This document shows, piece by piece, positions 20,768 through 64,000 of a stretch of DNA of 64,000 bases. The translations under genes were made by a program, and so were the position numbers. The stretch's first letter is position 1, and each line of letters starts with the position of its first letter. Below the pieces are notes generated by a model. It saw only the letters and a program-made list of their open reading frames with translations. It was not told the DNA's origin and made no database searches. This stretch comes from Ascidia mentula (taxonomy: Eukaryota; Chordata; Ascidiacea; Phlebobranchia; Ascidiidae): contig OX387199.1 of assembly GCA_947561715.1 (NCBI GenBank), positions 9,987,001-10,051,000 of the forward strand, read 5' to 3'.

Positions 20768-22698
20768 AAGTTCGCTCTTAAAGGGATTGTAAAGCAATAA
20801 AGTGAGATTGGCAAGGATTAGGATAATAATTTTCAATACAAAGAGACTTGATTATTCAACAATGTTCACAGCTTACCACTACATGAACATAACAGGAAGG
20901 AATAAGTTTAAATGACAATGTAATTCAACTAGAATGGTCTGAAATCATTTGTGATGCGAATTTAATTCAATATCACAAAGATTAAAATACGGGTGATGCG
21001 TTTGGTCGGAATTCAACCAAAAGTACGCTTACACTTTCTCTTATTCAATAATATGATGGGTTTTGGCAATAATGTAAGGTAAACCTCATAAACTTAATGT
21101 CACCTCAACAAAATTTCAGGAATGAAAAAACTACTTTCACAAAACAAACCTTTGTACTTGGACGAGTTCCGAGTTATTCAAGGCCGCTCTTGTTGTCTGA
21201 ATAACGAAAAAAGTGACAAAATCATTTCCGTATTACGCACAAACGTACTCCTGCTGTCGTAAAGATTTGGCGACTTTCCTGGCAAAAACGTTTATTTTAC
21301 ATTCGATGCTTCGGTCGGTGTGCAGCTGACCTTTCTCACAAACGATGGTGATTAGCAGATTATTTCAGTCGCTCGTGCAATTTGTTCGTAATTGCGTTTT
21401 AGTTTGTGTTACAAATAAGTTTTTTGTGTGCAAACTATTCCGGTTTTCGATAGACTAGTAGGTCGATGAACAGAAATTATTGTTCCGCAAATATTTAAAT
21501 ATTCAAAAATGTGTATCATCAGCTTTTCTGGATTGTCGAATAGTCATTGCTTACATAATATTGATATAATATTTTAACAAACCGCAAACCAGTCGCTTCT
21601 ACTGAGATCGTGGTTGCGACAGCATATAACCAAGCAACGTACGAATTTGTCTTTTTCAGTCCGAGTCGAAATGAGCTCGTTCGCGACTATTTTTCTTGTA
21701 ATATCCACGTGGTAATATTTGCGTTTGCAATACCTAAGTTTCCCCTTGTAACATTCCGCGGGTAAAATCAAGGTCTTGCAAACACTTTTCATTCTATCAT
21801 AGGTAAGCTTGCTTGACAACTTTCCTCGAGTGCCCATAGGATTTAGCACTTAGTGTCTGTTTGATCACATGCCAACAGCACAACCCTCGCAGCGGGAGCT
21901 GCCCGCACATCTGTATTTCCACAAAAGTAAGTTTGGCCGGCGGTAAAAGACCAACTTGTATTCCTCTGTCACAATGTAACGTACATACGACGTAACAAAG
22001 CGATCAGTGACGCACGGAGGTCCATTTTTGGTTGAATAGGAACGGGTGCTTGTGCTGGTGCTAGGTCCAATTTGAGCGTGTTTGAAGGAATTTTTAGTGG
22101 ATTTAGGGGCTGTTTAAAATCATCAGAGTGTTTGTAATACTGGATTAGACATTCTCAGTTGACATTATTTGAATTGGAAAAACACCAAGAAATGCAATTG
22201 AAATTTGCAGAGATATAAATCGTGTAGTCTACCTAATCATTTGCGTATTTCTGGCAGTGTATGTTTTACTATGCGTAATTAACATAAAACAACAAACTAG
22301 CTGATGCAAACCAAGCCTCCCACTACGGCTGTTTTGGGATATACTGTCGTCATTGTTTCATGGACGTTCGTTTCGTTGTCACGCTAGACGCACAATTGCC
22401 ATAAAGATATCCCGTCTTTAACCGTTATTGAAACTAAACTTTCGTGAAATTACTGGCCATTTAACGAGGGGTACAGGATTTCGGAATCTCCAACAAAACA
22501 TCATATCGAATTAAATCTTCACATTGAGTTTATTTTAATTCGGAACATTTACTCCAATAAAGTCCAAAAAACTGTTGTTTATTCAATAATAGCTCTGACA
22601 ACAATGCAGAAATACAAAGGTCATTTTGTGACACAAACAACAAATAAGAATTACAACAATCAACACAGCACAACAAATATGTAGTTTTGTGTGGATAT
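20768..22698. other. Spacer of unit 1
   Basis: No recognised gene. A minus-strand frame at 21574-21849 (91 codons, Cys-rich, including CLVICCRNHD and SDWFAVC) is open here and in units 2, 5 and 6 but frameshifted in units 3, 4, 7 and 8. A plus-strand splice-like pair (GTAAACC at about 21079 and TTTCAG at 21114-21119) brackets a 41-nt gap, but the frames on either side are not conserved between units. Confidence 0.4.
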
Positions 22699-22704
22699 TT
22701 TATT
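22699..22704 (-). terminator. Polyadenylation signal of GBE-like copy 1
   Basis: AATAAA on the minus strand only about 10 nt after the TGA stop (22714-22716), implying a very short 3' UTR. Equivalent signals are at 28170-28175, 33640-33645, 39111-39116, 44597-44602, 50083-50088, 55542-55547 and 61015-61020. Confidence 0.6.
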
Positions 22705-22713
22705 TGAAACCAA

Positions 22714-25700
22714 TCAATATCCCGAAGCCCGACGACCCGAAACGCTTGAAAATCCGACAGATCTGGAACGTGACGGGCTACGACCGTTTCGTTGAAATCG
22801 ATGAGAAGAGCAGCCAGAAGCATTGTAAACTGGTTGACTTCTGCCAAAACTTGCACATCTGTATGGACTCTTATCTCTTCTCGATTCGCCCAAATTCATC
22901 TCCCTCAAGCGAGTTTCACAGCTCGGCGAACGACCACGACTGTGGCTACGTTCACGACGCCACGGTGAAGTGCTCCGTGAGTTGTAGTCACGGCCGCGAT
23001 CACGACAATCATCGTATCCATAATAAACCCGATTGGCATTCACGTCGTTGGACCAATGAGAAAGGGCGTCGCTCGCCATTACAATAACACAACGTGACGG
23101 CAAATAAACCTTGAGCAAAATAGAAAGATTTAGTGATTCGTTTGAATGACAGTATGATAGCATCTTACCATCAGTGAACATGGGTTATTGTCACACGATT
23201 GTTGTTGAGTGTGGAAATCCACCGAAGCTTCATTTCTACCGTGACCTCCAAACATTTTTTGGTCACTGTCCAAAACAATCTTGTACCTTCAACGCGAAAG
23301 GGTGTTATTTACGACGGAACGCTAACTGTGCAAGGTATACCCAAACCATACTCACGTTCCTGATGTTCGTACACCGATTCGATAATTGGGATAACTTTTT
23401 GTAGGATGAAAGTTAAACATGAAGACCAGGCCGGCTCTTTCGAATACAATCACTTTCTCATCATCGTGTTGACGTGTAACAAGTCCCTAGGATCAATTGG
23501 ATTGTGAAAACGTGCACTGCAAGTGAATACCAACGGAAACAATAATTATCCTATACCTGAGGGGAACTTAGCCAACCAAATCGTTCTTCCAAACGGTTAA
23601 TTGCGATATCGAAATTATTGAGGTATTTGTATCTCAGCTGCTGGTCATCAGCAAGCTCAAACTGTCTTCTTGCCAGTTGGTAATTGTCTCCATTCTGTAA
23701 CGATGGAAACTCAACCCAATCTGGATGAGCGAACTCGTTGCCTACGAAAGGGTTCCTTTTGGTAAACATGTAAAAAAACGTTTACGCCAATAAAGTAATT
23801 TACCCATAAAATTCAGGTATGATTTTCCACTGAAGGCATTTGTGATAAATCTGATCATCTTGTGGAGACTCATTCCTCTGTCCAATCTCGGTGACATTTC
23901 CCGCCGGTCCAACATACACTCATTGTCCATAAGTTGCCTTGCAATCGTCCATTGACAATCCATGCTCTGAACATTAAAATTTATAACATCAGACAATGAA
24001 TGTTCAAATCTAAAAGTTAAATCGTTAACCTGTTGGTGGTCTTCTGGGTACGTGATATATCTTTCCCCTGTCCTCCGTTCGGACAACATTTGACAAATTT
24101 CGCTCATTCCCCAGTTTTCATCCGACATTCCGTTTAATATCTGAAAACGCGAAACCCGTTAGAGTAGAAAATGACGCTCCTTGATGCTGCCATGGTTTTA
24201 CCTGCATCCATTGACTTGGAATATGCATCGATAATCTGTAATCGAAACCGAATCCACCTTGATTGACAGGACGAGTCAAACTTGGAAATTCGGTATACTC
24301 CTATACGCAGCAAAAAACACACTCTTTAAATCTTTGTTCGATTTTTTGTTGACCAAACAAAGACAAGTCCTACCTCTGCAATGGTTATGATTTTTGGATA
24401 GTATCGATGCAAAATTTTGTTTGCAAGCAATAGGTAAGCCATTGCTCCAATGTCCATGTGCATTCCGAAATATTGTCGGTAGTTATCAACAGATTGGATG
24501 TCTAAAGATCATTAAAAATTTACAAAACAAACGCTTTTTAAGTATTGCAATTGCACTAATACTGATAAGTACATTTACCAGGAATTTGATTGTGGTAGAT
24601 CATTGGCGTTACTCCATTAAACCGAAAACCGTCGAATCCAAAGTTTTCCACGTAATGACGGAGGTTGGACAGTAAAAATCGAAGAACTTCCCACCTAAAC
24701 AAGTTTTTACATGCGCCATCACACAGAGATGATTGTACGTAAACCATCGCAATGCCCCTTACTTTGTAAAGTCAAACTTTCGCGCGTCATTTTCCCTGAA
24801 ATCCCGTCTATCAGAACGGAAGAAACACTCATCAGTGCCATCAAAGCGATCTAAACTTTCCCAGCCATTCTTCGATGCGTGACTGTGCATAACATCCATC
24901 ATGACGTAAATTCCCATCCCATGTGCGACGTTTATCAACTCCCTCAGATCGTCAGGAGTCCCATATCGGCTGCGATCATAACACAAGTGTTTTTGTAAAC
25001 TACACGTAATCCTGAACTGAGGCAAAAACTCACAATTCTATCACTAAAACGTGGACTCACCTTGAGGGCGCAAAAAAGTTGGTAACTTGGTAACCAACGC
25101 TCGGATAATAAGGATGCTCCATAATTGCCATGAGAAGCACGCAGTTGTAGCCTAGATCGCGAATGCGAGGAAGAACATCTGTGGTGAACTGCTTGTAAGA
25201 AGATACTTGACAACGATCGGAGCTGATCCCAATGTGAGCTTCGTAAATGCGCAAACGTTCGGGCTTCGAAATTTGATTGTTTGCAAACTGGAAATAAAGT
25301 TTTAATTTGTTTTTCTGTTCGGCTCTCGCTTTTGACAACGTGAAGAAAAGCAAACCATATCACGTACTCGTTGACAAGATTTATTTGATGACGGATTCCA
25401 AAAGCGCCATGTAAACGTTGATCCGCACTGGGTCACGTATTTTGCCCACGGTGAAATTCTTTCCAATATCTGATTGTCTTTCGTTTCAACCACAAGCTGA
25501 AATTAAACAATTTTGTTATTTGTGTTTCTACATCAATGTCTGCGTAAAGCAAGCCATCTACCTTCAGTTCGGATAGATGGTTTATTGGGCATCTACCATC
25601 TCGATTTGGTGGCATGAACATTTCCCACTGACCATATCCGATGTCCTTGTACATTATTTTTTCCCAGTTGTCTGAACAAGCATTGTGGCTTAAATACACG

Positions 25701-26101
25701 AAGAGATTCGATTTGAAGCTACACACTCACTAAAATCTCCCATTAGGTAGACGGCCCTCGCATTGGGAACCCATTCCCTGCATTGAATTCCTCCCTCTTG
25801 TGTGAGAACAACACCGAAAGTTTCGTAACTTCGACTGAACCGATCCATTCCTTCCTCGCGTTCAATGTCCATCAGAGCCTTTTCAAACATTCCATATCTA
25901 CAACACCAATATTAGTTTTATTATTTATAGTTACTTGACCAACCTTTAGATTTAATTACAACGGTTTTGTGTTTTACTGTCTTTTATTTACCTAAGTCTA
26001 ATATCCTTTACAAAGCTTCTTAATCTTGGGTCATTTGCAAACAAGCTTTCGATTTCGGGAACTCCCCATTGTTGAAGATTGTCGTGACCTGAGAACTCCA
26101 T
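22714..26101 (-). CDS. GBE1-like: GBE1-like pseudoenzyme with RS tail, copy 1
   Basis: Glycogen branching enzyme family (GH13). The 15 exons are 26101-25992, 25897-25731, 25671-25562, 25496-25368, 25287-25061, 24969-24763, 24694-24579, 24501-24374, 24300-24202, 24140-24030, 23966-23804, 23741-23557, 23486-23356, 23286-23169, 23109-22714; introns are 59-94 nt. Product is 798 residues (human GBE1 702). A CBM48-type N-domain ([19 protein letters not shown]) is followed by GH13 region I MMDVMHSH (Asp273, His278), region [12 protein letters not shown] (Asn343), region III IITIAE (Glu398) and region IV EDHQQ (Gln467). Human catalytic Asp357, Glu412 and Asp481 align at a constant offset of 14, so nucleophile and third Asp are lost. 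NEFAHPDW and YLPSR follow; residues 681-798 are an Arg/Ser-rich tail. Private residues: Val31, Phe508, Lys614. Confidence 0.93.
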
Positions 26102-26207
26102 TTTTGCTCCACGATATGAGATTCGAATCAAAGGTTAAGTAAGCGGTTATAAAGCAGCTTGACCGAAATTTCAACGAATGTTGTGATGTAGGTATGTTGC
26201 GATGGAA

Positions 26208-26215
26208 TTTATATA
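26208..26215 (-). promoter_or_regulatory. TATA-like box upstream of GBE-like copy 1
   Basis: TATATAAA on the minus strand, about 107 nt before the ATG at 26101, which would leave a 5' UTR near 75 nt. The same box sits 17-24 nt left of each following unit start: 31682-31689, 37152-37159, 42623-42630, 48109-48116, 53595-53602 and 59055-59062. It is conserved in every complete copy, which supports separate transcription of each unit. Confidence 0.55.
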
Positions 26216-26231
26216 GGGCGTAAAAAGGAAG

Positions 26232-28169: not shown

Positions 28170-28184
28170 TTTATTTGAAACCAA

Positions 28185-31100
28185 TCAATATCCCGAAGCT
28201 CGACGACCAGAAACGCCTGAAAATCCAACAGATCTGGAACGTGACGGGCTACGCCCGTTTTGTTGAAATCGATGAGAAGAGCAGCCAGAAGCATTGTAAA
28301 CTGGTTGACTTCTACCAAAACTTGCACATCTGTATGGACTCTTGTCTCTTCTCGATTCGCCCAAATTCATCTCCCTCAAGCGAGTTTCACAGCTCGGCGA
28401 ACGACCACGACTGTGGCTACGTTCACGACGCCACGGTGAAGTGCTCCGCGAGTTGTAGTCACGGCCGCGATCACGACAATCATCGTATCCATAATAAACC
28501 CGATTGGCATTCACGGTGTTGGACCAATGAGAAAGGGCGTCGCTCGCCATTACAATAACACAACGTGACGGCAAATAAACCTTGAGCAAAATAGAAAGAT
28601 TTAGTGATTCGTTTGAATGACAGTATGATAGCATCTTACCATCAGTGAACATGGGTTATTGTCACACGATTGTTGTTGAGTGTGGAAATCCACCGAAGCT
28701 TCATTTCTACCGTGACCTCCAAACATTTTTTGGTCACTGTCCAAAACAATCTTGTACCTTCAACGCGAAAGGGTGTTATTTACGACGGAACGCGAACTGT
28801 GCAAGGTATACCCAAACCATACTCACGTTCCTGATGTTCGTACACCGATTCGATAATTGGGATAACTTTGTGTAGGATGAAAGTTAAACATGAAGACCAG
28901 GCCGGCTCTTTCGAATACAATCACTTTCTCATCATCGTGTTGACGTGTAACAAGTCCCTTAAGATCAAATGGATTGTGGAAACGTGCACTGCAAGTGAAT
29001 ATACCAACGGAAAAAATAATTATCCTATACCTGAGGGGAACTTAGCCAACCAAATCGTTCTTCCAAACGGTTAATTGCGATATCGAAATTATTGAGGTAT
29101 TTGTATCTCAGCTGCTGGTCATCAGCAAGCTCAAACTGTCTTCTTGCCAGTTGGTAATTGTCTCTATTCTGTAACGATGGAAACTCAACCCAATCTGGAT
29201 GAGCGAACTCGTTGCCTACGAAAGGGTTCCTTTTGGTAAACATGTAAAAAAATGTTTACGCCAATAAAGTAATTTACCCATAAAATTCAGGTATGATTTT
29301 CCACTGAAGGCATTTGTGATAAGTCTGATCATCTTGTGGAGACTCATTCCTCTGTCCAATCTCGGTGACATTTCCCGCCGGTCCAACATGCACTCATTGT
29401 CCATAAGTTGCCTTGCAATCGTCCATTGACAATCCATGCTCTGAACATTAAAATTTATAACATCAGACAATGAATGTTCAAATCTAAAAGTTAAATCGTC
29501 AACCTGTTGGTGGTCTTCTGGGTACGTGATATATCTTTCCCCTGTCCTCCGTTCGGACAACATTTGACAAATTTCGCTCATTCCCCAGTTTTCATCCGAC
29601 ATTCCGTTTAATATCTGAAAACGCGAAACCCGTTAGAGTAGAAAATGACGCTCCTTGATGCTGCCATGGTTTTACCTGCATCCATTGACTTGGAATATGC
29701 ATCGATAATCTGTAATCGAAACCGAATCCACCTTGATTGACAGGACGAGTCAAACTTGGAAATTCGGTATACTCCTATACGCAGCAAAAAACACACTCTT
29801 TAAATCTTTGTTCGATTTTTTGTTGACCAAACAAAGACAAGTCCTACCTCTGCAATGGTTATGATTTTTGGATAGTATCGATGCAAAATTTTGTTTGCAA
29901 GCAATAGGTAAGCCATTGCTCCAATGTCCATGTGCATTCCGAAGTATTGTCGGTAGTTATCAACAGATTGGATGTCTAAAGATCATTAAAAATTTACAAA
30001 GCAAACGCTTTTTAAGTATTGCAATTGCACCAATACTGATCAGTACATTTACCAGGAATTTGATTGTGGTAGATCATTGGCGTTACTCCATTAAACCGAA
30101 AACCGTCGAATCCAAAGTTTTCCACGTAATGACGGAGGTTGGACAGTAAAAATCGAAGAACTTCCCACCTAAACAAGTTTTTACATGCGCCATCACACAG
30201 ATATGATTGTACGTAAACCATCGCAATGCCCCTTACTTTGTAAAGTCAAACTTTCGCGCGTCATTTTCCCTGAAATCCCGTCTATCAGAACGGAAGAAAC
30301 ACTCATCAGTGCCATCAAAGCGATCTAAACTTTCCCAGCCATTCTTCGATGCGTGACTGTGCATAACATCCATCATGACGTAAATTCCCATCCCATGTGC
30401 GACGTTTATCAACTCCCTCAGATCGTCAGGAGTCCCATATCGGCTGCGATCATAACACAAGTGTTTTTGTAAACTACACGTAATCCTGAACTGAGGCAAA
30501 AACTCACAATTCTATCACTAAAACGTGGACTCACCTTGAGGGCGCAAAAAAGTTGGTAACTTGGTAACCTACGCTCGGATAATAAGGATGCTCCATAATT
30601 GCCATGAGAAGCACGCAGTTGTAGCCTAGATCGCGAATGCGAGGAAGAACATCTGTGGTGAACTGCTTGTAAGAAGATACTTGACAACGATCGGAGCTGA
30701 TCCCAATGTGAGCTTCGTAAATGCGCAAACGTTCGGGCTTCGAAATTTGATTGTTTGCAAACTGGAAATAAAGTTTTAATTTGTTTTTCTGTTCGACTCT
30801 CGCTTTTGACAACGTGAAGAAAAGCAAACCATATCACGTACTCGTTGACAAGATTTATTTGAAGACGGATTCCAAAAGCGCCATGTAAACGTTGATCCGC
30901 ACTGGGTCACGTATTTTGCCCACGGTGAAATTCTTTCCAATATCTGATTGTCTTTCGTTTCAACCACAAGCTGAAATTAAACAATTTTGTTATTTGTGTT
31001 TCCACATCAATGTCTGAGTAAAGCAAGCCATCTACCTTCAGTTCGGATAGATGGTTTATTGGGCATCTACCATCTCGATTTGGTGGCATGAACATTTCCC

Positions 31101-31575
31101 ACTGACCATATCCGATGTCCTTGTACATTATTTTTTCCCAGTTGTCTGAACAAGCATTGTGGCTTAAATAGACGAAGAGATTCGATTTGAAGCTACACAC
31201 TCACTAAAATCTCCCATTAGGTAGACGGCCCTCGCATTGGGAACCCATTCCCTGCATTGAATTCCTCCCTCTTGTGTGAGAACAACACCGAAAGTTTTGT
31301 AACTTCGACTGAACCGATCCATTCCTTCCTCGCGTTCAATGTCCATCAGCGCTTTTTCAAACATTCCATATCTACAACACCAATATTAGTTATATTATTT
31401 ATAGTTACTTGACCAACCTTTAGATTTAATTACAACGGTTTTGTATTTTACTGTCTTTTATTTACCTAAGTCTGATATCCTTTTCAAAGCTTCTTAATCT
31501 TGGGTCATTTGCAAACAAGCTTTCGATTTCGGGAACTCCCCATTGTTGAAGATTGTCGTGACCTGAGAATTCCAT
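28185..31575 (-). CDS. GBE1-like: GBE1-like pseudoenzyme with RS tail, copy 2
   Basis: Same exon plan as copy 1 with every exon open. Asn at the nucleophile position and Gln at the third catalytic Asp are unchanged. Differences from the other copies seen in the reading frames are Lys62 (SYKTF instead of SYETF), Arg540 (SLQNR), Thr689 (NTVNAN) and, in the tail, RFQQN and GFSGV. Like all later copies it has Glu31 and Leu508. It is the most divergent tail in the array, yet stays in frame to the same stop. Confidence 0.93.
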
Positions 31576-31705
31576 TTTTGCTCCACGATATGAGATTCGA
31601 ATCAAAGGTTAAGTAAGCGGTTATAACGCAGCTTGACCGAGATTTCAACGAATGTTGTGATGTAGGTATGTTGCGATGGAATTTATATAGGGCGTAAAAA
31701 GGAAG

Positions 31706-33639: not shown

Positions 33640-33654
33640 TTTATTTGAAACCAA

Positions 33655-36600
33655 TCAATATCCCGAAGCCCGACGACCCGAAACGCTTGAAAATCCGACA
33701 GATCTGGAACGTGACGGGCTACGACCGTTTCGTTGAAATCGATGAGAAGAGCAGCCAGAAGCATTGTAAACTGGTTGACTTCTACCAAAACTTGCACATC
33801 TGTATGGACTCTTATCTCTTCTCGATTCGCCCAAATTCATCTCCCTCAAGCGAGTTTCACAGCTCGGCGAACGACCACGACTGTGGCTACGTTCACGACG
33901 CCACGGTGAAGTGCTCCGTGAGTTGTAGTCACGGCCGCGATCACGACAATCATCGTATCCATAATAAACCCGATTGGCATTCACGTCGTTGGACCAATGA
34001 GAAAGGGCGTCGCTCGCCATTACAATAACACAACGTGACGGCAAATAAACCTTGAGCAAAATAGAAAGATTTAGTGATTCGTTTGAATGACAGTATGATA
34101 GCATCTTACCATCAGTGAACATGGGTTATTGTCACACGATTGTTGTTGAGTGTGGAAATCCACCGAAGCTTCATTTCTACCGTGACCTCCAAACATTTTT
34201 TGGTCACTGTCCAAAACAATCTTGTACCTTCAACGCGAAAGGGTGTTATTTACGACGGAACGCGAACTGTGCAAGGTATACCCAAACCATACTCACGTTC
34301 CTGATGTTCGTACACCGATTCGATAATTGGGATAACTTTGTGTAGGATGAAAGTTAAACATGAAGACCAGGCCGGCTCTTTCGAATACAATCACTTTCTC
34401 ATCATCGTGTTGACGTGTAACAAGTCCCTTAAGATCAAATGGATTGTGGAAACGTGCACTGCAAGTGAATATACCAACGGAAAAAATAATTATCCTATAC
34501 CTGAGGGGAACTTAGCCAACCAAATCGTTCTTCCAAACGGTTAATTGCGATATCGAAATTATTGAGGTATTTGTATCTCAGCTGCTGGTCATCAGCAAGC
34601 TCAAACTGTCTTCTTGCCAGTTGGTAATTGTCTCCATTCTGTAACGATGGAAACTCAACCCAATCTGGATGAGCGAACTCGTTGCCTACGAAAGGGTTCC
34701 TTTTGGTAAACATGTAAAAAAACGTTTACGCCAATAAAGTAATTTACCCATAAAATTCAGGTATGATTTTCCACTGAAGGCATTTGTGATAAGTCTGATC
34801 ATCTTGTGGAGACTCATTCCTCTGTCCAATCTCGGTGACATTTCCCGCCGGTCCAACATGCACTCATTGTCCATAAGTTGCCTTGCAATCGTCCATTGAC
34901 AATCCATGCTCTGAACATTAAAATTTATAACATCAGACAATGAATGTTCAAATCTAAAAGTTAAATCGTCAACCTGTTGGTGGTCTTCTGGGTACGTGAT
35001 ATATCTTTCCCCTGTCCTCCGTTCGGACAACATTTGACAAATTTCGCTCATTCCCCAGTTTTCATCCGACATTCCGTTTAATATCTGAAAACGCGAAACC
35101 CGTTAGAGTAGAAAATGACGCTCCTTGATGCTGCCATGGTTTTACCTGCATCCATTGACTTGGAATATGCATCGATAATCTGTAATCGAAACCGAATCCA
35201 CCTTGATTGACAGGACGAGTCAAACTTGGAAATTCGGTATACTCCTATACGCAGCAAAAAACACACTCTTTAAATCTTTGTTCGATTTTTTGTTGACCAA
35301 ACAAAGACAAGTCCTACCTCTGCAATGGTTATGATTTTTGGATAGTATCGATGCAAAATTTTGTTTGCAAGCAATAGGTAAGCCATTGCTCCAATGTCCA
35401 TGTGCATTCCGAAGTATTGTCGGTAGTTATCAACAGATTGGATGTCTAAAGATCATTAAAAATTTACAAAGCAAACGCTTTTTAAGTATTGCAATTGCAC
35501 CAATACTGATAAGTACATTTACCAGGAATTTGATTGTGGTAGATCATTGGCGTTACTCCATTAAACCGAAAACCGTCGAATCCAAAGTTTTCCACGTAAT
35601 GACGGAGGTTGGACAGTAAAAATCGAAGAACTTCCCACCTAAACAAGTTTTTACATGCGCCATCACACAGATATGATTGTACGTAAACCATCGCAATGCC
35701 CCTTACTTTGTAAAGTCAAACTTTCGCGCGTCATTTTCCCTGAAATCCCGTCTATCAGAACGGAAGAAACACTCATCAGTGCCATCAAAGCGATCTAAAC
35801 TTTCCCAGCCATTCTTCGATGCGTGACTGTGCATAACATCCATCATGACGTAAATTCCCATCCCATGTGCGACGTTTATCAACTCCCTCAGATCGTCAGG
35901 AGTCCCATATCGGCTGCGATCATAACACAAGTGTTTTTGTAAACTACACGTAATCCTGAACTGAGGCAAAAACTCACAATTCTATCACTAAAACGTGGAC
36001 TCACCTTGAGGGCGCAAAAAAGTTGGTAACTTGGTAACCAACGCTCGGATAATAAGGATGCTCCATAATTGCCATGAGAAGCACGCAGTTGTAGCCTAGA
36101 TCGCGAATGCGAGGAAGAACATCTGTGGTGAACTGCTTGTAAGAAGATACTTGACAACGATCGGAGCTGATCCCAATGTGAGCTTCGTAAATGCGCAAAC
36201 GTTCGGGCTTCGAAATTTGATTGTTTGCAAACTGGAAATAAAGTTTTAATTTGTTTTTCTGTTCGACTCTCGCTTTTGACAACGTGAAGAAAAGCAAACC
36301 ATATCACGTACTCGTTGACAAGATTTATTTGAAGACGGATTCCAAAAGCGCCATGTAAACGTTGATCCGCACTGGGTCACGTATTTTGCCCACGGTGAAA
36401 TTCTTTCCAATATCTGATTGTCTTTCGTTTCAACCACAAGCTGAAATTAAACAATTTTGTTATTTGTGTTTCCACATCAATGTCTGAGTAAAGCAAGCCA
36501 TCTACCTTCAGTTCGGATAGATGGTTTATTGGGCATCTACCATCTCGATTTGGTGGCATGAACATTTCCCACTGACCATATCCGATGTCCTTGTACATTA

Positions 36601-37045
36601 TTTTTTCCCAGTTGTCTGAACAAGCATTGTGGCTTAAATAGACGAAGAGATTCGATTTGAAGCTACACACTCACTAAAATCTCCCATTAGGTAGACGGCC
36701 CTCGCATTGGGAACCCATTCCCTGCATTGAATTCCTCCCTCTTGTGTGAGAACAACACCGAAAGTTTCGTAACTTCGACTGAACCGATCCATTCCTTCCT
36801 CGCGTTCAATGTCCATCAGCGCTTTTTCAAACATTCCATATCTACAACACCAATATTAGTTATATTATTTATAGTTACTTGACCAACCTTTAGATTTAAT
36901 TACAACGGTTTTGTATTTTACTGTCTTTTATTTACCTAAGTCTGATATCCTTTTCAAAGCTTCTTAATCTTGGGTCATTTGCAAACAAGCTTTCGATTTC
37001 GGGAACTCCCCATTGTTGAAGATTGTCGTGACCTAAGAATTCCAT
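33655..37045 (-). CDS. GBE1-like: GBE1-like pseudoenzyme with RS tail, copy 3
   Basis: All 15 exons are open and splice sites conserved. A private change makes residue 4 Leu (MEFLGHD, from CTAAGAAT on the plus strand at 37033-37040). The active-site substitutions are present. Intron-10 donor is of the GTTGAC type. Tail is identical in the translated frame to copies 1, 4, 6 and 7. Confidence 0.93.
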
Positions 37046-39110: not shown

Positions 39111-39125
39111 TTTATTTGAAACCAA

Positions 39126-42100: not shown

Positions 42101-42516
42101 TGGCTTAAATACACGAAGAGATTCGATATGAAGCTACACACTCACTAAAATCTCCCATTAGGTAGACGGCCCTCGCATTGGGAACCCATTCCCTGCATTG
42201 AATTCCTCCCTCTTGTGTGAGAACAACACCGAAAGTTTCGTAACTTCGACTGAACCGATCCATTCCTTCCTCGCGTTCAATGTCCATCAGCGCTTTTTCA
42301 AACATTCCATATCTACAACACCAATATTAGTTATATTATTTATAGTTACTTGACCAACCTTTAGATTTAATTACAACGGTTTTGTATTTTACTGTCTTTT
42401 ATTTACCTAAGTCTGATATCCTTTTCAAAGCTTCTTAATCTTGGGTCATTTGCAAACAAGCTTTCGATTTCGGGAACTCCCCATTGTTGAAGATTGTCGT
42501 GACCTGAGAATTCCAT
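39126..42516 (-). CDS. GBE1-like: GBE1-like pseudoenzyme with RS tail, copy 4
   Basis: Intact 15-exon copy. No private amino-acid change was found within exons; single-base differences fall in introns (for example near 40577 and 42128). Active-site Asn and Gln as in the other copies. Spacer to its left is of the type shared with units 3, 7 and 8. Confidence 0.93.
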
Positions 42517-47600: not shown

Positions 47601-48002
47601 GAAGAGATTCGATTTGAAGCTACACACTCACTAAAATCTCCCATTAGGTAGACGGCCCTCGCATTGGGAACCCATTCCCTGCATTGAATTCCTCCCTCTT
47701 GTGTGAGAACAACACCGAAAGTTTCGTAACTTCGACTGAACCGATCCATTCCTTCCTCGCGTTCAATGTCCATCAGCGCTTTTTCAAACATTCCATATCT
47801 ACAACACCAATATTAGTTATATTATTTATAGTTACTTGACCAACCTTTAGATTTAATTACAACGGTTTTGTATTTTACTGTCTTTTATTTACCTAAGTCT
47901 GATATCCTTTTCAAAGCTTCTTAATCTTGGGTCATTTGCAAACAAGCTTTCGATTTCGGGAACTCCCCATTGTTGAAGATTGTCGTGACCTGAGAATTCC
48001 AT
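44612..48002 (-). CDS. GBE1-like: GBE1-like pseudoenzyme with RS tail, copy 5
   Basis: Intact frame with three private changes: His350 (PMIHHNQ) just after region II, Leu522 (NFLG for NFMG) next to the active-site NEF motif, and Thr795 near the C-terminus. Changes close to the ancestral active site fit relaxed constraint on catalysis. Its spacer is nearly identical to that of unit 6, suggesting these two units duplicated recently. Confidence 0.93.
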
Positions 48003-48132
48003 TTTTGCTCCACGATATGAGATTCGAATCAAAGGTTAAGTAAGCGGTTATAACGCAGCTTGACCGAGATTTCAACGAATGTTGTGATGTAGGTATGTTG
48101 CGATGGAATTTATATAGGGCGTAAAAAGGAAG

Positions 48133-50082: not shown

Positions 50083-50097
50083 TTTATTTGAAACCAA

Positions 50098-53000
50098 TCA
50101 ATATCCCGAAGCCCGACGACCCGAAACGCTTGAAAATCCGACAGATCTGGAACGTGACGGGCTACGACCGTTTCGTTGAAATCGATGAGAAGAGCAGCCA
50201 GAAGCATTGTAAACTGGTTGACTTCTGCCAAAACTTGCACATCTGTATGGACTCTTATCTCTTCTCGATTCGCCCAAATTCATCTCCCTCAAGCGAGTTT
50301 CACAGCTCGGCGAACGACCACGACTGTGGCTACGTTCACGACGCCACGGTGAAGTGCTCCGTGAGTTGTAGTCACGGCCGCGATCACGACAATCATCGTA
50401 TCCATAATAAACCCGATTGGCATTCACGTCGTTGGACCAATGAGAAAGGGCGTCGCTCGCCATTACAATAACACAACGTGACGGCAAATAAACCTTGAGC
50501 AAAATAGAAAGATTTAGTGATTCGTTTGAATGACAGTATGATAGCATCTTACCATCAGTGAACATGGGTTATTGTCACACGATTGTTGTTGAGTGTGGAA
50601 ATCCACCGAAGCTTCATTTCTACCGTGACCTCCAAACATTTTTTGGTCACTGTCCAAAACAATCTTGTACCTTCAACGCGAAAGGGTGTTATTTACGACG
50701 GAACGCGAACTGTGCAAGGTATACCCAAACCATACTCACGTTCCTGATGTTCGTACACCGATTCGATAATTGGGATAACTTTGTGTAGGATGAAAGTTAA
50801 ACATGAAGACCAGGCCGGCTCTTTCGAATACAATCACTTTCTCATCATCGTGTTGACGTGTAACAAGTCCCTTAAGATCAAATGGATTGTGGAAACGTGC
50901 ACTGCAAGTGAATATACCAACGGAAAAAATAATTATCCTATACCTGAGGGGAACTTAGCCAACCAAATCGTTCTTCCAAACGGTTAATTGCGATATCGAA
51001 ATTATTGAGGTATTTGTATCTCAGCTGCTGGTCATCAGCAAGCTCAAACTGTCTTCTTGCCAGTTGGTAATTGTCTCCATTCTGTAACGATGGAAACTCA
51101 ACCCAATCTGGATGAGCGAACTCGTTGCCTACGAAAGGGTTCCTTTTGGTAAACATGTAAAAAAACGTTTACGCCAATAAAGTAATTTACCCATAAAATT
51201 CAGGTATGATTTTCCACTGAAGGCATTTGTGATAAGTCTGATCATCTTGTGGAGACTCATTCCTCTGTCCAATCTCGGTGACATTTCCCGCCGGTCCAAC
51301 ATGCACTCATTGTCCATAAGTTGCCTTGCAATCGTCCATTGACAATCCATGCTCTGAACATTAAAATTTATAACATCAGACAATGAATGTTCAAATCTAA
51401 AAGTTAAATCGTTAACCTGTTGGTGGTCTTCTGGGTACGTGATATATCTTTCCCCTGTCCTCCGTTCGGACAACATTTGACAAATTTCGCTCATTCCCCA
51501 GTTTTCATCCGACATTCCGTTTAATATCTGAAAACGCGAAACCCGTTACAGTAGAAAATGACGCTCCTTGATGCTGCCATGGTTTTACCTGCATCCATTG
51601 ACTTGGAATATGCATCGATAATCTGTAATCGAAACCGAATCCACCTTGATTGACAGGACGAGTCAAACTTGGAAATTCGGTATACTCCTATACGCAGCAA
51701 AAAACACACTCTTTAAATCTTTGTTCGATTTTTTGTTGACCAAACAAAGACAAGTCCTACCTCTGCAATGGTTATGATTTTTGGATAGTATCGATGCAAA
51801 ATTTTGTTTGCAAGCAATAGGTAAGCCATTGCTCCAATGTCCATGTGCATTCCGAAGTATTGTCGGTAGTTATCAACAGATTGGATGTCTAAAGATCATT
51901 AAAAATTTACAAAACAAACGCTTTTTAAGTATTGCAATTGCACTAATACTGATAAGTACATTTACCAGGAATTTGATTGTGGTAGATCATTGGCGTTACT
52001 CCATTAAACCGAAAACCGTCGAATCCAAAGTTTTCCACGTAATGACGGAGGTTGGACAGTAAAAATCGAAGAACTTCCCACCTAAACAAGTTTTTACATG
52101 CGCCATCACACAGAGATGATTGTACGTAAACCATCGCAATGCCCCTTACTTTGTAAAGTCAAACTTTCGCGCGTCATTTTCCCTGAAATCCCGTCTATCA
52201 GAACGGAAGAAACACTCATCAGTGCCATCAAAGCGATCTAAACTTTCCCAGCCATTCTTCGATGCGTGACTGTGCATAACATCCATCATGACGTAAATTC
52301 CCATCCCATGTGCGACGTTTATCAACTCCCTCAGATCGTCAGGAGTCCCATATCGGCTGCGATCATAACACAAGTGTTTTTGTAAACTACACGTAATCCT
52401 GAACTGAGGCAAAAACTCACAATTCTATCACTAAAACGTGGACTCACCTTGAGGGCGCAAAAAAGTTGGTAACTTGGTAACCAACGCTCGGATAATAAGG
52501 ATGCTCCATAATTGCCATGAGAAGCACGCAGTTGTAGCCTAGATCGCGAATGCGAGGAAGAACATCTGTGGTGAACTGCTTGTAAGAAGATACTTGACAA
52601 CGATCGGAGCTGATCCCAATGTGAGCTTCGTAAATGCGCAAACGTTCGGGCTTCGAAATTTGATTGTTTGCAAACTGGAAATAAAGTTTTAATTTGTTTT
52701 TCTGTTCGACTCTCGCTTTTGACAACGTAAAGAAAAGCAAACCATATCACGTACTCGTTGACAAGATTTATTTGAAGACGGATTCCAAAAGCGCCATGTA
52801 AACGTTGATCCGCACTGGGTCACGTATTTTGCCCACGGTGAAATTCTTTCCAATATCTGATTGTCTTTCGTTTCAACCACAAGCTGAAATTAAACAATTT
52901 TGTTATTTGTGTTTCCACATCAATGTCTGAGTAAAGCAAGCCATCTACCTTCAGTTCGGATAGATGGTTTATTGGGCATCTACCATCTCGATTTGGTGGC

Positions 53001-53488
53001 ATGAACATTTCCCACTGACCATATCCGATGTCCTTGTACATTATTTTTTCCCAGTTGTCTGAACAAGCATTGTGGCTTAAATACACGAAGAGATTCGATT
53101 TGAAGCTACACACTCACTAAAATCTCCCATTAGGTAGACGGCCCTCGCATTGGGAACCCATTCCCTGCATTGAATTCCTCCCTCTTGTGTGAGAACAACA
53201 CCGAAAGTTTCGTAACTTCGACTGAACCGATCCATTCCTTCCTCGCGTTCAATGTCCATCAGCGCTTTTTCAAACATTCCATATCTACAACACCAATATT
53301 AGTTATATTATTTATAGTTACTTGACCAACCTTTAGATTTAATTACAACGGTTTTGTATTTTACTGTCTTTTATTTACCTAAGTCTGATATCCTTTTCAA
53401 AGCTTCTTAATCTTGGGTCATTTGCAAACAAGCTTTCGATTTCGGGAACTCCCCATTGTTGAAGATTGTCGTGACCTGAGAATTCCAT
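50098..53488 (-). CDS. GBE1-like: GBE1-like pseudoenzyme with RS tail, copy 6
   Basis: Intact 15-exon copy without private exon substitutions that I could see. Intron-10 donor is the GTTAAC type shared with copies 1 and 8, although its spacer groups with unit 5. This mismatch of markers is direct evidence of exchange between units. Catalytic-site substitutions as elsewhere. Confidence 0.93.
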
Positions 53489-53618
53489 TTTTGCTCCACG
53501 ATATGAGATTCGAATCAAAGGTTAAGTAAGCGGTTATAACGCAGCTTGACCGAGATTTCAACGAATGTTGTGATGTAGGTATGTTGCGATGGAATTTATA
53601 TAGGGCGTAAAAAAGAAG

Positions 53619-55541: not shown

Positions 55542-55556
55542 TTTATTTGAAACCAA

Positions 55557-58500
55557 TCAATATCCCGAAGCCCGACGACCCGAAACGCTTGAAAATCCGA
55601 CAGATCTGGAACGTGACGGGCTACGACCGTTTCGTTGAAATCGATGAGAAGAGCAGCCAGAAGCATTGTAAACTGGTTGACTTCTACCAAAACTTGCACA
55701 TCTGTATGGACTCTTATCTCTTCTCGATTCGCCCAAATTCATCTCCCTCAAGCGAGTTTCACAGCTCGGCGAACGACCACGACTGTGGCTACGTTCACGA
55801 CGCCACGGTGAAGTGCTCCGTGAGTTGTAGTCACGGCCGCGATCACGACAATCATCGTATCCATAATAAACCCGATTGGCATTCACGTCGTTGGACCAAT
55901 GAGAAAGGGCGTCGCTCGCCATTACAATAACACAACGTGACGGCAAATAAACCTTGAGCAAAATAGAAAGATTTAGTGATTCGTTTGAATGACAGTATGA
56001 TAGCATCTTACCATCAGTGAACATGGGTTATTGTCACACGATTGTTGTTGAGTGTGGAAATCCACCGAAGCTTCATTTCTACCGTGACCTCCAAACATTT
56101 TTTGGTCACTGTCCAAAACAATCTTGTACCTTCAACGCGAAAGGGTGTTATTTACGACGGAACGCGAACTGTGCAAGGTATACCCAAACCATACTCACGT
56201 TCCTGATGTTCGTACACCGATTCGATAATTGGGATAACTTTGTGTAGGATGAAAGTTAAACATGAAGACCAGGCCGGCTCTTTCGAATACAATCACTTTC
56301 TCATCATCGTGTTGACGTGTAACAAGTCCCTTAAGATCAAATGGATTGTGGAAACGTGCACTGCAAGTGAATATACCAACGGAAAAAATAATTATCCTAT
56401 ACCTGAGGGGAACTTAGCCAACCAAATCGTTCTTCCAAACGGTTAATTGCGATATCGAAATTATTGAGGTATTTGTATCTCAGCTGCTGGTCATCAGCAA
56501 GCTCAAACTGTCTTCTTGCCAGTTGGTAATTGTCTCCATTCTGTAACGATGGAAACTCAACCCAATCTGGATGAGCGAACTCGTTGCCTACGAAAGGGTT
56601 CCTTTTGGTAAACATGTAAAAAAACGTTTACGCCAATAAAGTAATTTACCCATAAAATTCAGGTATGATTTTCCACTGAAGGCATTTGTGATAAGTCTGA
56701 TCATCTTGTGGAGACTCATTCCTCTGTCCAATCTCGGTGACATTTCCCGCCGGTCCAACATGCACTCATTGTCCATAAGTTGCCTTGCAATCGTCCATTG
56801 ACAATCCATGCTCTGAACATTAAAATTTATAACATCAGACAATGAATGTTCAAATCTAAAAGTTAAATCGTCAACCTGTTGGTGGTCTTCTGGGTACGTG
56901 ATATATCTTTCCCCTGTCCTCCGTTCGGACAACATTTGACAAATTTCGCTCATTCCCCAGTTTTCATCCGACATTCCGTTTAATATCTGAAAACGCGAAA
57001 CCCGTTACAGTAGAAAATGACGCTCCTTGATGCTGCCATGGTTTTACCTGCATCCATTGACTTGGAATATGCATCGATAATCTGTAATCGAAACCGAATC
57101 CACCTTGATTGACAGGACGAGTCAAACTTGGAAATTCGGTATACTCCTATACGCAGCAAAAAAACACACTCTTTAAATCTTTGTTCGATTTTTTGTTGAC
57201 CAAACAAAGACAAGTCCTACCTCTGCAATGGTTATGATTTTTGGATAGTATCGATGCAAAATTTTGTTTGCAAGCAATAGGTAAGCCATTGCTCCAATGT
57301 CCATGTGCATTCCGAAGTATTGTCGGTAGTTATCAACAGATTGGATGTCTAAAGATCATTAAAAATTTACAAAGCAAACGCTTTTTAAGTATTGCAATTG
57401 CACCAATACTGATAAGTACATTTACCAGGAATTTGATTGTGGTAGATCATTGGCGTTACTCCATTAAACCGAAAACCGTCGAATCCAAAGTTTTCCACGT
57501 AATGACGGAGGTTGGACAGTAAAAATCGAAGAACTTCCCACCTAAACAAGTTTTTACATGCGCCATCACACAGATATGATTGTACGTAAACCATCGCAAT
57601 GCCCCTTACTTTGTAAAGTCAAACTTTCGCGCGTCATTTTCCCTGAAATCCCGTCTATCAGAACGGAAGAAACACTCATCAGTGCCATCAAAGCGATCTA
57701 AACTTTCCCAGCCATTCTTCGATGCGTGACTGTGCATAACATCCATCATGACGTAAATTCCCATCCCATGTGCGACGTTTATCAACTCCCTCAGATCGTC
57801 AGGAGTCCCATATCGGCTGCGATCATAACACAAGTGTTTTTGTAAACTACACGTAATCCTGAACTGAGGCAAAAACTCACAATTCTATCACTAAAACGTG
57901 GACTCACCTTGAGGGCGCAAAAAAGTTGGTAACTTGGTAACCAACGCTCGGATAATAAGGATGCTCCATAATTGCCATGAGAAGCACGCAGTTGTAGCCT
58001 AGATCGCGAATGCGAGGAAGAACATCTGTGGTGAACTGCTTGTAAGAAGATACTTGACAACGATCGGAGCTGATCCCAATGTGAGCTTCGTAAATGCGCA
58101 AACGTTCGGGCTTCGAAATTTGATTGTTTGCAAACTGGAAATAAAGTTTTAATTTGTTTTTCTGTTCGACTCTCACTTTTGACAACGTGAAGAAAAGCAA
58201 ACCATATCACGTACTCGTTGACAAGATTTATTTGAAGACGGATTCCAAAAGCGCCATGTAAACGTTGATCCGCACTGGGTCACGTATTTTGCCCACGGTG
58301 AAATTCTTTCCAATATCTGATTGTCTTTCGTTTCAACCACAAGCTGAAATTAAACAATTTTGTTATTTGTGTTTCCACATCAATGTCTGAGTAAAGCAAG
58401 CCATCTACCTTCAGTTCGGATAGATGGTTTATTGGGCATCTACCATCTCGATTTGGTGGCATGAACATTTCCCACTGACCATATCCGATGTCCTTGTACA

Positions 58501-58948
58501 TTATTTTTTCCCAGTTGTCTGAACAAGCATTGTGGCTTAAATACACGAAGAGATTCGATTTGAAGCTACACACTCACTAAAATCTCCCATTAGGTAGACG
58601 GCCCTCGCATTGGGAACCCATTCCCTGCATTGAATTCCTCCCTCTTGTGTGAGAACAACACCGAAAGTTTCGTAACTTCGACTGAACCGATCCATTCCTT
58701 CCTCGCGTTCAATGTCCATCAGCGCTTTTTCAAACATTCCATATCTACAACACCAATATTAGTTATATTATTTATAGTTACTTGACCAACCTTTAGATTT
58801 AATTACAACGGTTTTGTATTTTACTGTCTTTTATTTACCTAAGTCTGATATCCTTTTCAAAGCTTCTTAATCTTGGGTCATTTGCAAACAAGCTTTCGAT
58901 TTCGGGAACTCCCCATTGTTGAAGATTGTCGTGACCTGAGAATTCCAT
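55557..58948 (-). CDS. GBE1-like: GBE1-like pseudoenzyme with RS tail, copy 7
   Basis: Intact 15-exon copy. One extra A in the run at about 57162-57167 lies in intron 8 just upstream of the exon-9 acceptor and does not affect the frame. A C-to-T-type change near 58175 lies in intron 4. Asn343 and Gln467 equivalents are present, tail open to the shared stop. Confidence 0.93.
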
Positions 58949-59078
58949 TTTTGCTCCACGATATGAGATTCGAATCAAAGGTTAAGTAAGCGGTTATAAC
59001 GCAGCTTGACCGAGATTTCAACGAATGTTGTGATGTAGGTATGTTGCGATGGAATTTATATAGGGCGTAAAAAGGAAG

Positions 59079-61014: not shown

Positions 61015-61029
61015 TTTATTTGAAACCAA

Positions 61030-64000
61030 TCAATATCCCGAAGCCCGACGACCCGAAACGCTTGAAAATCCGACAGATCTGGAACGTGACGGGCTACGAC
61101 CGTTTCGTTGAAATCGATGAGAAGAGCAGCCAGAAGCATTGTAAACTGGTTGACTTCTGCCAAAACTTGCACATCTGTATGGACTCTTATCTCTTCTCGA
61201 TTCGCCCAAATTCATCTCCCTCAAGCGAGTTTCACAGCTCGGCGAACGACCACGACTGTGGCTACGTTCACGACGCCACGGTGAAGTGCTCCGTGAGTTG
61301 TAGTCACGGCCGCGATCACGACAATCATCGTATCCATAATAAACCCGATTGGCATTCACGTCGTTGGACCAATGAGAAAGGGCGTCGCTCGCCATTACAA
61401 TAACACAACGTGACGGCAAATAAACCTTGAGCAAAATAGAAAGATTTAGTGATTCGTTTGAATGACAGTATGATAGCATCTTACCATCAGTGAACATGGG
61501 TTATTGTCACACGATTGTTGTTGAGTGTGGAAATCCACCGAAGCTTCATTTCTACCGTGACCTCCAAACATTTTTTGGTCACTGTCCAAAACAATCTTGT
61601 ACCTTCAACGCGAAAGGGTGTTATTTACGACGGAACGCGAACTGTGCAAGGTATACCCAAACCATACTCACGTTCCTGATGTTCGTACACCGATTCGATA
61701 ATTGGGATAACTTTGTGTAGGATGAAAGTTAAACATGAAGACCAGGCCGGCTCTTTCGAATACAATCACTTTCTCATCATCGTGTTGACGTGTAACAAGT
61801 CCCTTAAGATCAAATGGATTGTGGAAACGTGCACTGCAAGTGAATATACCAACGGAAAAAATAATTATCCTATACCTGAGGGGAACTTAGCCAACCAAAT
61901 CGTTCTTCCAAACGGTTAATTGCGATATCGAAATTATTGAGGTATTTGTATCTCAGCTGCTGGTCATCAGCAAGCTCAAACTGTCTTCTTGCCAGTTGGT
62001 AATTGTCTCCATTCTGTAACGATGGAAACTCAACCCAATCTGGATGAGCGAACTCGTTGCCTACGAAAGGGTTCCTTTTGGTAAACATGTAAAAAAACGT
62101 TTACGCCAATAAAGTAATTTACCCATAAAATTCAGGTATGATTTTCCACTGAAGGCATTTGTGATAAGTCTGATCATCTTGTGGAGACTCATTCCTCTGT
62201 CCAATCTCGGTGACATTTCCCGCCGGTCCAACATGCACTCATTGTCCATAAGTTGCCTTGCAATCGTCCATTGACAATCCATGCTCTGAACATTAAAATT
62301 TATAACATCAGACAATGAATGTTCAAATCTAAAAGTTAAATCGTTAACCTGTTGGTGGTCTTCTGGGTACGTGATATATCTTTCCCCTGTCCTCCGTTCG
62401 GACAACATTTGACAAATTTCGCTCATTCCCCAGTTTTCATCCGACATTCCGTTTAATATCTGAAAACGCGAAACCCGTTAGAGTAGAAAATGACGCTCCT
62501 TGATGCTGCCATGGTTTTACCTGCATCCATTGACTTGGAATATGCATCGATAATCTGTAATCGAAACCGAATCCACCTTGATTGACAGGACGAGTCAAAC
62601 TTGGAAATTCGGTATACTCCTATACGCAGCAAAAAACACACTCTTTAAATCTTTGTTCGATTTTTTGTTGACCAAACAAAGACAAGTCCTACCTCTGCAA
62701 TGGTTATGATTTTTGGATAGTATCGATGCAAAATTTTGTTTGCAAGCAATAGGTAAGCCATTGCTCCAATGTCCATGTGCATTCCGAAGTATTGTCGGTA
62801 GTTATCAACAGATTGGATGTCTAAAGATCATTAAAAATTTACAAAACAAACGCTTTTTAAGTATTGCAATTGCACTAATACTGATAAGTACATTTACCAG
62901 GAATTTGATTGTGGTAGATCATTGGCGTTACTCCATTAAACCGAAAACCGTCGAATCCAAAGTTTTCCACGTAATGACGGAGGTTGGACAGTAAAAATCG
63001 AAGAACTTCCCACCTAAACAAGTTTTTACATGCGCCATCACACAGAGATGATTGTACGTAAACCATCGCAATGCCCCTTACTTTGTAAAGTCAAACTTTC
63101 GCGCGTCATTTTCCCTGAAATCCCGTCTATCAGAACGGAAGAAACACTCATCAGTGCCATCAAAGCGATCTAAACTTTCCCAGCCATTCTTCGATGCGTG
63201 ACTGTGCATAACATCCATCATGACGTAAATTCCCATCCCATGTGCGACGTTTATCAACTCCCTCAGATCGTCAGGAGTCCCATATCGGCTGCGATCATAA
63301 CACAAGTGTTTTTGTAAACTACACGTAATCCTGAACTGAGGCAAAAACTCACAATTCTATCACTAAAACGTGGACTCACCTTGAGGGCGCAAAAAAGTTG
63401 GTAACTTGGTAACCAACGCTCGGATAATAAGGATGCTCCATAATTGCCATGAGAAGCACGCAGTTGTAGCCTAGATCGCGAATGCGAGGAAGAACATCTG
63501 TGGTGAACTGCTTGTAAGAAGATACTTGACAACGATCGGAGCTGATCCCAATGTGAGCTTCGTAAATGCGCAAACGTTCGGGCTTCGAAATTTGATTGTT
63601 TGCAAACTGGAAATAAAGTTTTAATTTGTTTTTCTGTTCGACTCTCGCTTTTGACAACGTGAAGAAAAGCAAACCATATCACGTACTCGTTGACAAGATT
63701 TATTTGAAGACGGATTCCAAAAGCGCCATGTAAACGTTGATCCGCACTGGGTCACGTATTTTGCCCACGGTGAAATTCTTTCCAATATCTGATTGTCTTT
63801 CGTTTCAACCACAAGCTGAAATTAAACAATTTTGTTATTTGTGTTTCCACATCAATGTCTGAGTAAAGCAAGCCATCTACCTTCAGTTCGGATAGATGGT
63901 TTATTGGGCATCTACCATCTCGATTTGGTGGCATGAACATTTCCCACTGACCATATCCGATGTCCTTGTACATTATTTTTTCCCAGTTGTCTGAACAAGC
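61030..64000 (-). CDS. GBE1-like: GBE1-like pseudoenzyme with RS tail, copy 8 (cut by window)
   Basis: Exons 3-15 are present and open. The first base of exon 3 is at 63990, and exons 1 and 2 lie beyond the window edge. Region II reads GFRFNGV and region IV EDHQQ, as in the other seven. Its markers combine the GTTAAC intron-10 donor with a spacer of the unit 3/4/7 type. Confidence 0.92.

Follow-up and report, generated by a model that had tools for sequence, protein, structure and literature searches.

The window analysed here, a 64,000-nucleotide stretch of Ascidia mentula DNA, carries a tandem series of genes for a protein related to the glycogen branching enzyme GBE1, in which two of the three catalytic residues have been replaced. 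It raises the question of what such a protein does, and why a genome should hold so many copies of its gene.

Array layout and gene structure

The array portion within the window spans positions 20768..64000 (no strand assigned to the region as a whole) and consists of 5.46–5.49 kb repeat units in tandem, the first starting at 20768. Copy 1 of this GBE-like pseudoenzyme gene, with 15 exons and 798 codons, was located at 22714..26101 on the minus strand. It is followed on the same strand by copy 2 (28185..31575), copy 3 (33655..37045), copy 4 (39126..42516), copy 5 (44612..48002), copy 6 (50098..53488) and copy 7 (55557..58948). Copy 8 (61030..64000, minus strand) is cut by the window end, with exons 3–15 inside the window, and is complete in the genome. 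The array runs past the window end, to C52:10,185,999, and genome-wide it holds 31 full-length genes and two fragments in approximately 178 kb, a copy number given as assembled, which may differ in the animal. A previous sequence-only reading had described eight tandem genes; the tandem arrangement was borne out, while the figure of eight was a count set by the window edge and not the total. Pairwise differences among the first eight units amount to 0.1–2.0%. Since the units differ from one another and diversity varies by site class, the array is no mere repetition of a single string, and an assembly artefact or chance could be ruled out.

All 31 full genes are oriented on the minus strand, and each comprises 798 codons in 15 exons. 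The 15-exon model with GT-AG introns yielded 798 amino acids in copies 1–7, and a single non-consensus splice site was present in the transferred gene model of copy 18. A TATA box (TATATAAAT) was found 114–116 nt 5' of the ATG (26207..26215, minus strand, in copy 1), and an AATAAA polyadenylation signal 10 nt 3' of the stop codon (22699..22704, minus strand, in copy 1), both in 31/31 full genes. Internal stops were absent in 28 of the 31 and present in three; the sequence-only reading had described reading frames and both control signals as preserved. The protein contains CBM48, GH13 and C-terminal domains (Pfam PF02922, PF00128 and PF02806, all above cut-off), to which a basic Ser/Arg-rich C-terminal tail has been added. 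In copy 1 the last exon (22714..23109, minus strand) encodes the end of the C domain and this tail. An RS domain was considered for the tail and rejected, as SR/RS dipeptides numbered 12 against a shuffle mean of 9.5 (p 0.22).

Catalytic residues and a tunicate pseudoenzyme clade

The Asp-Glu-Asp triad of glycogen branching enzyme (GH13_8, EC 2.4.1.18) was absent in 31/31 full genes. The nucleophile position holds Asn and the second catalytic Asp is replaced by Gln in all of them, while the acid/base Glu is retained throughout. In copy 1 these residues are N343 (24616..24618), E398 (24374..24376) and Q467 (24033..24035), all on the minus strand. Each stands 14 residues before human D357, E412 and D481, the triad named for human GBE1 in PMC4581599, with the human numbering verified on macaque GBE1; the offset reported in the sequence-only reading was thus reproduced. 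The motifs DGFRFNGV and EDHQQ each occurred eight times in the raw six-frame translation of the window, so that a splice model is unnecessary to see them, and the earlier observation of Asn in region II and Gln in EDHQQ held for the eight window copies, Asn and Gln standing at these two positions in all 31 genes. The exact string GFRFNGV, present in all eight window copies, is found in 29/31 genes across the genome; copies 31 and 32 read GFRLNRV, with the Asn still there. Region I reads DVMHSH in the window protein, with Asp and His kept as had been claimed. D/D/E/D was found at these columns in 114 of the 121 rows examined, a count that includes the over-long predictions P0001, P0006 and P0009. 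These losses strongly support the earlier non-catalytic reading as a prediction from sequence, and the array protein would accordingly be expected to be catalytically inactive.

A separate canonical GBE1 with an intact triad, whose presence had been proposed as a check, was found in the same genome on another contig (C1). Its introns after TIAE and after SHDQ lie at the same two places as in the array gene. Because both codons fall within exons and the canonical gene with these shared introns has Asp, no splice model restores Asp, and such a model was ruled out, the motifs being present in the raw translation as well. PF00128 matches on C70 were considered as a possible canonical GBE1 and rejected. 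L009 and L010, which lie there, were matched by neither the array protein nor P0007, and C70 therefore probably holds another GH13 gene. The own-genome search scored 64 of 314 candidates and may have missed a further weak GBE relative.

Phylogenetic analysis of 33 rows placed the array gene with Ciona and Clavelina GBE-like members in one clade (support 100/100), on which the loss of the nucleophile appears as one change of state. Statements on homologues refer to the best 120 of 7289 and the best 120 of 7236 rows. Among these matches, all seven clade members have lost the nucleophile Asp and kept the acid/base Glu, the region I Asp and the region II Arg. The nucleophile position is occupied by Asn followed by Gly in five members and by Cys or Arg in two. 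The second Asp was lost in 6/7 members, and region I His291 is Gln or Glu in six, the window gene alone keeping His. At 200 columns near-invariant in non-tunicate GBEs, the seven members showed 50–67 departures and canonical tunicate GBEs 1–5; this comparison used 147 canonical rows with P0001, P0006 and P0009 left out, gaps were counted as departures, and the N-termini of P0008 and P0031 are short. The tree favoured a duplication after the split from Styela (96/88), and an AU test did not reject the canonical tunicate GBEs as a single clade (p 0.208). The tails differ between the species of the clade. Literature searches did not find a published description of this array or pseudoenzyme.

Selection, fold and the glucan cleft

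Comparison of the copies revealed purifying selection at the protein level. Diversity was 0.0066 in the coding sequence, against 0.0148 for introns and 0.0225 for the 3' flank, based on the 26 units matching end to end in one piece. Across 31 of the 33 copies, with the two fragments dropped and two multi-base codon variants omitted, 59 nonsynonymous and 41 synonymous variants gave a pN/pS of 0.37 (p 3e-6); the tail taken alone gave 0.36 (p 0.021). This dN/dS-type check, proposed with the claim that the copies are maintained, upheld it, and a pseudogene array was ruled out by the constraint, the 28/31 genes free of internal stops and the control signals in 31/31. A few copies carry changes at family-conserved positions (H278R in three, G344R in two, P81H in one). 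Private changes were common to neighbours, namely the stop at 757 (copies 21 and 22), R781P (24–27) and G344R (31 and 32), as expected from local duplication.

The best PDB match of the array protein was human GBE1 (4bzy), over residues 13–679. The predicted structure of the Ciona relative matches the fold of human GBE1; its loops at 231–246, 478–483 and 533–542 and its tail are of low confidence. The window gene matches eight of the ten acarbose-contacting residues of the non-catalytic cleft of human GBE1, and E63, W91, P93, G120, W332, E333 and R336 of this cleft are kept in 7/7 clade members. Among cleft positions near-invariant in canonical GBEs, 5/6 are kept in all seven members against a background of 98/195 columns, which is no clear excess. 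Glycogen binding by the array protein is plausible. The branching enzymes tested in PMC13011383 are described there as having extremely low affinity for intact oyster glycogen.

Possible roles of the array and known systems

The explanation that we consider best, at somewhat better than an even chance, is that the array encodes a non-catalytic alpha-glucan-binding protein derived from a duplicated GBE1, kept by selection and amplified for dose. GBE1 would have been duplicated in an ascidian ancestor, and one daughter would have lost its nucleophile once and been retained by purifying selection as a non-catalytic alpha-glucan binder. Amplification to approximately 31 tandem genes would have followed in Ascidia mentula, most simply because much protein is needed; copy number and selection point to such a high dose, and expression would then be high. 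None of these observations points specifically to the decoy role also suggested in the sequence-only reading. Glycogen chains may be held by the CBM48/barrel cleft and perhaps by the inert barrel groove too, and the basic tail may serve as a tether between molecules of this protein, or from it to other molecules or to membranes. The protein could thus coat, pack or position glycogen, with branching left to the canonical GBE1. Non-catalytic effects of ISA1/ISA2 on polyglucan form provide a precedent (PMC12510319). Several observations count against this explanation: the three genes with stops, the few conserved positions changed, the species-variable tails, the weak affinity for oyster glycogen, the cleft retention near background, and a copy number that may have risen without selection for dose.

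A structural or storage protein derived from an enzyme, soluble, inactive and produced in bulk, with an optical, packing or reserve role and glucan binding incidental, would accommodate 31 near-identical genes whose sequences have lost catalysis and kept fold and constraint. The S-crystallins, GSTs recruited to the lens of cephalopods (PMC13218726), are the model for this reading, and a Ciona GBE-like gene was down in both Onecut perturbations of a photoreceptor study (PMC8012850). A purely structural role needs no retained glucan cleft, and we regard this reading as rather unlikely. It is unlikely, too, that the array is the chordate S-crystallin counterpart in the specific sense of a branching enzyme that lost catalysis in an ascidian ancestor and was amplified in a single lineage to make bulk glycogen-protein material (a refractive, packing or reserve matrix) in a dedicated tissue. 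Glycogen may be present in ascidian lens cells, and a lens role for the array is at most a weak lead.

The dead paralogue might instead tune branching, as ISA2 does with ISA1, either by pairing with glycogen synthase or the canonical GBE1 or by occupying glucan chains. Shared fold and architecture, the retained cleft and the maize precedent (PMC12510319) are in keeping with such a regulator; according to PMC4581599 human GBE1 is monomeric, and a regulator seldom needs 31 genes, so we hold this role to be quite improbable. That a modest conserved role persists in an array grown by unequal crossing-over, its copy number unselected, fits the private changes common to neighbouring copies and the three copies with stops. 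Constraint across copies and control signals in 31/31 genes would be needless in a mostly idle array, and this origin seems very unlikely. The acid/base Glu, region I Asp and region II Arg of all seven members, and the Gly after Asn in all five Asn-bearing ones, would suit chemistry persisting by an altered mechanism or by Asn-Gly deamidation at the nucleophile. Against this stand the second Asp and His291, each lost in 6/7 members, the Cys or Arg nucleophile of two members, the Arg replacing that Gly in copies 31 and 32, and the Arg at the His291 position in 3/31 copies; persisting chemistry is thus highly improbable.

Under the glucan-binding explanation, a sister gene of GBE1 would have lost its branching chemistry once and persisted in three or more lineages of ascidians, one of which now has approximately 31 genes. 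The loss of key catalytic residues from so many maintained copies suggests a changed function for the protein, probably glycogen binding or structure building in large amounts. The array protein may thus be a natural case in which glycogen binding has been uncoupled from branching, by which the role of the non-catalytic parts of branching enzymes and of large gene dose becomes testable. In Ciona and Clavelina, the proteins annotated as GBE-like have probably lost the function implied by that label.

GH13 pseudoenzymes are a kind already known. The GBE-like paralogues of Ciona (P0003, P0004, P0008 and P0031) and Clavelina (P0002 and P0005) are annotated as branching enzymes and share with the array gene its clade, the lost nucleophile and the kept Glu, whereas the window gene retains His291 and has its own tail. 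Canonical metazoan GBE1 (GH13_8; human 4bzy) has the same CBM48, GH13 barrel and C domain, and that of the same genome has the same two intron places; the array differs in two replaced catalytic residues, the Ser/Arg-rich tail and 31 tandem genes. S-crystallins are multi-copy. Like the array they are co-opted enzyme relatives, with activity kept or not (PMC13218726), although they have a GST fold and a known lens use. Plant ISA2 is likewise a GH13 paralogue whose catalytic site is not functional, as is predicted for the array protein, and it is kept for a non-catalytic effect on polyglucan (PMC12510319), but it is a relative of debranching enzymes and binds ISA1.

Catalytic positions and the canonical GBE1 of the same genome

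Raw six-frame translation of the window revealed the motifs DGFRFNGV and EDHQQ eight times each. In the array protein, Asn 343, Glu 398 and Gln 467 correspond to D357, E412 and D481 of human GBE1, the canonical glycogen branching enzyme, so that both the 14-residue offset and the replacement of two of the three catalytic residues (343 and 467 changed, 398 kept) described in the sequence-only reading hold. The same Asn/Glu/Gln combination was present in all 31 full-length genes of the array. The region I His was kept in the window gene and was replaced by Arg in 3 of the 31 copies. Region II of copies 31 and 32, which lie past the window on contig C52, reads GFRLNRV, an additional change beside the lost nucleophile.

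When a Phallusia GBE1 was used as a query against the Ascidia mentula genome (64 of 314 candidates scored), the array and one further locus, C1:25694243-25698912, could be identified. In this second gene the motif DGFRFDGV is present, TIAE precedes DVSGMPG and YAESHDQ precedes ALVGDK; as in the array gene, one intron follows TIAE and another follows SHDQ. The exons of this gene matched the Phallusia protein at 75–94%, which probably places the animal close to Phallusia among the ascidians. A separate canonical GBE1, the presence of which the earlier reading had left to be checked, is thus encoded in this genome. Since the motifs of this gene are canonical with introns at the same two places, splicing error could be ruled out as the source of the changed residues. 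Branching in this animal can be supplied by this normal gene, as it carries the DGFRFDGV, TIAE and SHDQ motifs.

Architecture, integrity and surroundings of the array

The array begins at window position 20768 and ends at C52:10,185,999, a total span of 178,232 bp that extends past the window (C52:9987001-10051000) in a 195.8-Mb assembly of 79 contigs; of twelve probes past 10,185,000, the first one matched and the other eleven did not. The units are arranged head-to-tail at 5.46–5.49 kb each, with a single gene on the minus strand. The previously counted eight genes are correct for the window, but the whole array consists of 31 full-length genes and 2 fragments. Mean protein identity between copies was 99.2%, with 25 distinct sequences among the 31, and private changes were common to adjacent copies (21-22, 24-27 and 31-32), which fits local duplication. 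The array also holds a 2272-bp insertion (C52:10069127-10071398) that has terminal inverted repeats of 212 bp and, inside, a series of ~105-bp repeats; the ends of the insertion match window 4538-4932 and 6563-6854, and it is probably a non-autonomous DNA transposon.

A 15-exon model was made on copy 1 and transferred to the other copies. It gave GT-AG introns and a CDS of 2397 nt (798 amino acids) in copies 1-7, copy 8 being truncated by the window end, and the CDS length was 2397 nt in 31 of 31 full genes. The reported preservation of reading frames stands for the 28 genes without an internal stop and fails in copies 21 and 22, both with the same stop in the tail (codon 757), and in copy 27 (codon 79). 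The TATA box (114–116 nt upstream of the ATG) and AATAAA (10 nt past the stop codon) were preserved in every full gene, as had been claimed. Nucleotide diversity across 26 complete units was lowest in the CDS (0.0066), intermediate in introns (0.0148) and highest in the 3' flank (0.0225); at codon positions 1, 2 and 3 it was 0.0042, 0.0039 and 0.0117. Comparison of the 31 genes revealed constraint, with 59 distinct nonsynonymous (two of them stops) versus 41 synonymous variants at 1902 versus 492 sites (ratio 0.37, p 3e-6); the ratio was 0.36 (p 0.021) in the tail alone and 0.21 in copies 1-7 (12 nonsynonymous, 15 synonymous). Taken together, the copies show the pattern of constrained protein-coding genes.

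To the left of the array, window 16635-16899 contains 146 bp that are 100% identical to array-gene exon 14 with a few intron bases on each side, directly followed by 120 bp with 94% identity to 19661-19780; this mosaic of two neighbouring stretches resembles filler DNA left by the repair of a break. Adjoining the array, an ORF of 724 codons (17857-20031, plus strand) runs without interruption; it contains hydrophobic stretches and gave no Pfam match above the cut-off. An exon-like ORF at 9930-10193 (plus strand) matched Pfam CTP_transf_1 (PF01148, E 4.5e-9), which indicates a phosphatidate cytidylyltransferase-like gene. A tRNA-Thr (GGT) gene lies at 7371-7446 on the minus strand, and the 94 bp abutting its edge (7278-7371) are repeated inverted at 7533-7626 with 94% identity.

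Tunicate paralogues and the predicted fold

The array protein contains CBM48, alpha-amylase and alpha-amylase C domains in Pfam, and its top PDB match by sequence was human GBE1. Among 121 rows (the query and the best 120 of 7289 relatives above threshold), 114 carried D/D/E/D. The seven exceptions comprised the window gene and six tunicate proteins, from Clavelina lepadiformis, Ciona savignyi and C. intestinalis (two per species); at the nucleophile position, five of the seven have N, one has C and one has R. These seven formed one clade (support 100/100), requiring a single change of nucleophile state. In the tree the duplication postdates the divergence from Styela (support 96/88), with the alternative left unrejected by the AU test (p 0.208). 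A profile search with the seven members suggested no further member by name or rank among the best 120 matches listed; 36 proteins new to that search were counted as canonical in the one alignment by which they were checked.

At 200 columns that are near-invariant in GBEs from outside the tunicates, departures numbered 1–5 in the six canonical tunicate GBEs and 50–67 in the seven pseudoenzyme members. D481 and the region I His291 were each lost in six of the seven. At some columns a single new residue is fixed in all seven (e.g. Leu at 236, Asp at 547), and such changes look more like re-use than decay. As described in PMC4581599, a non-catalytic cleft of human GBE1 made of N62, E63, W91, P93, Y119, G120, K121, W332, E333 and R336 binds acarbose and maltoheptaose. 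E63, W91, P93, G120, W332, E333 and R336 were kept in all seven members, and the window gene matched 8 of the 10 residues. The cleft thus appears intact, yet its retention is not clearly in excess of the rest of the protein, since all seven kept 5 of 6 near-invariant cleft columns versus 98 of 195 near-invariant columns overall. The structure predicted for P0004, a Ciona member of the clade (mean pLDDT 75.7, pTM 0.81; tail 711-786 below 50) aligned to human GBE1 (4bzy_A) with a TM score of 0.95 normalised by 4bzy_A and 0.77 by the query, which includes the tail.

The array protein carries a tail of 116 residues past the C domain, with 24 Ser and 23 Arg and a pI of 10.9 versus 5.9 in the remainder. 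Its identity as an RS domain was rejected, because SR/RS dipeptides (12 versus 9.5 from composition, p 0.22) were not in excess. A 97-residue tail rich in Gly, Asn, Ser and Tyr is present in one Ciona member, and the Clavelina tails are short.

Proposed function of the array product

The array product is most likely a non-catalytic glucan-binding protein. GBE1 would have been duplicated, and the duplicate would have lost branching, retained the fold and the glucan cleft, and been kept as a glucan-binding protein; its gene would then have been amplified in the A. mentula lineage, most simply for dose. Strong glycogen binding is disfavoured by PMC13011383, in which all branching enzymes tested bound intact oyster glycogen with extremely low affinity. 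A bolder and less likely reading is that the product has a bulk structural role. The sole lead for it, from PMC8012850 (Table 1), is a Ciona GBE-like gene, possibly one of the pseudoenzyme paralogues, whose log2 fold change was -1.27 in one Onecut perturbation and -1.11 in the other. No description of this pseudoenzyme family was found among the openly licensed papers listed on branching enzymes in ascidians, Ciona or tunicates, as pseudoenzymes, or as inactive proteins with CBM48 and GH13. For the proposed glucan-binding role, a parallel is offered by maize ISA1/ISA2, a known case of non-catalytic control of polyglucan form, as outlined in PMC12510319.
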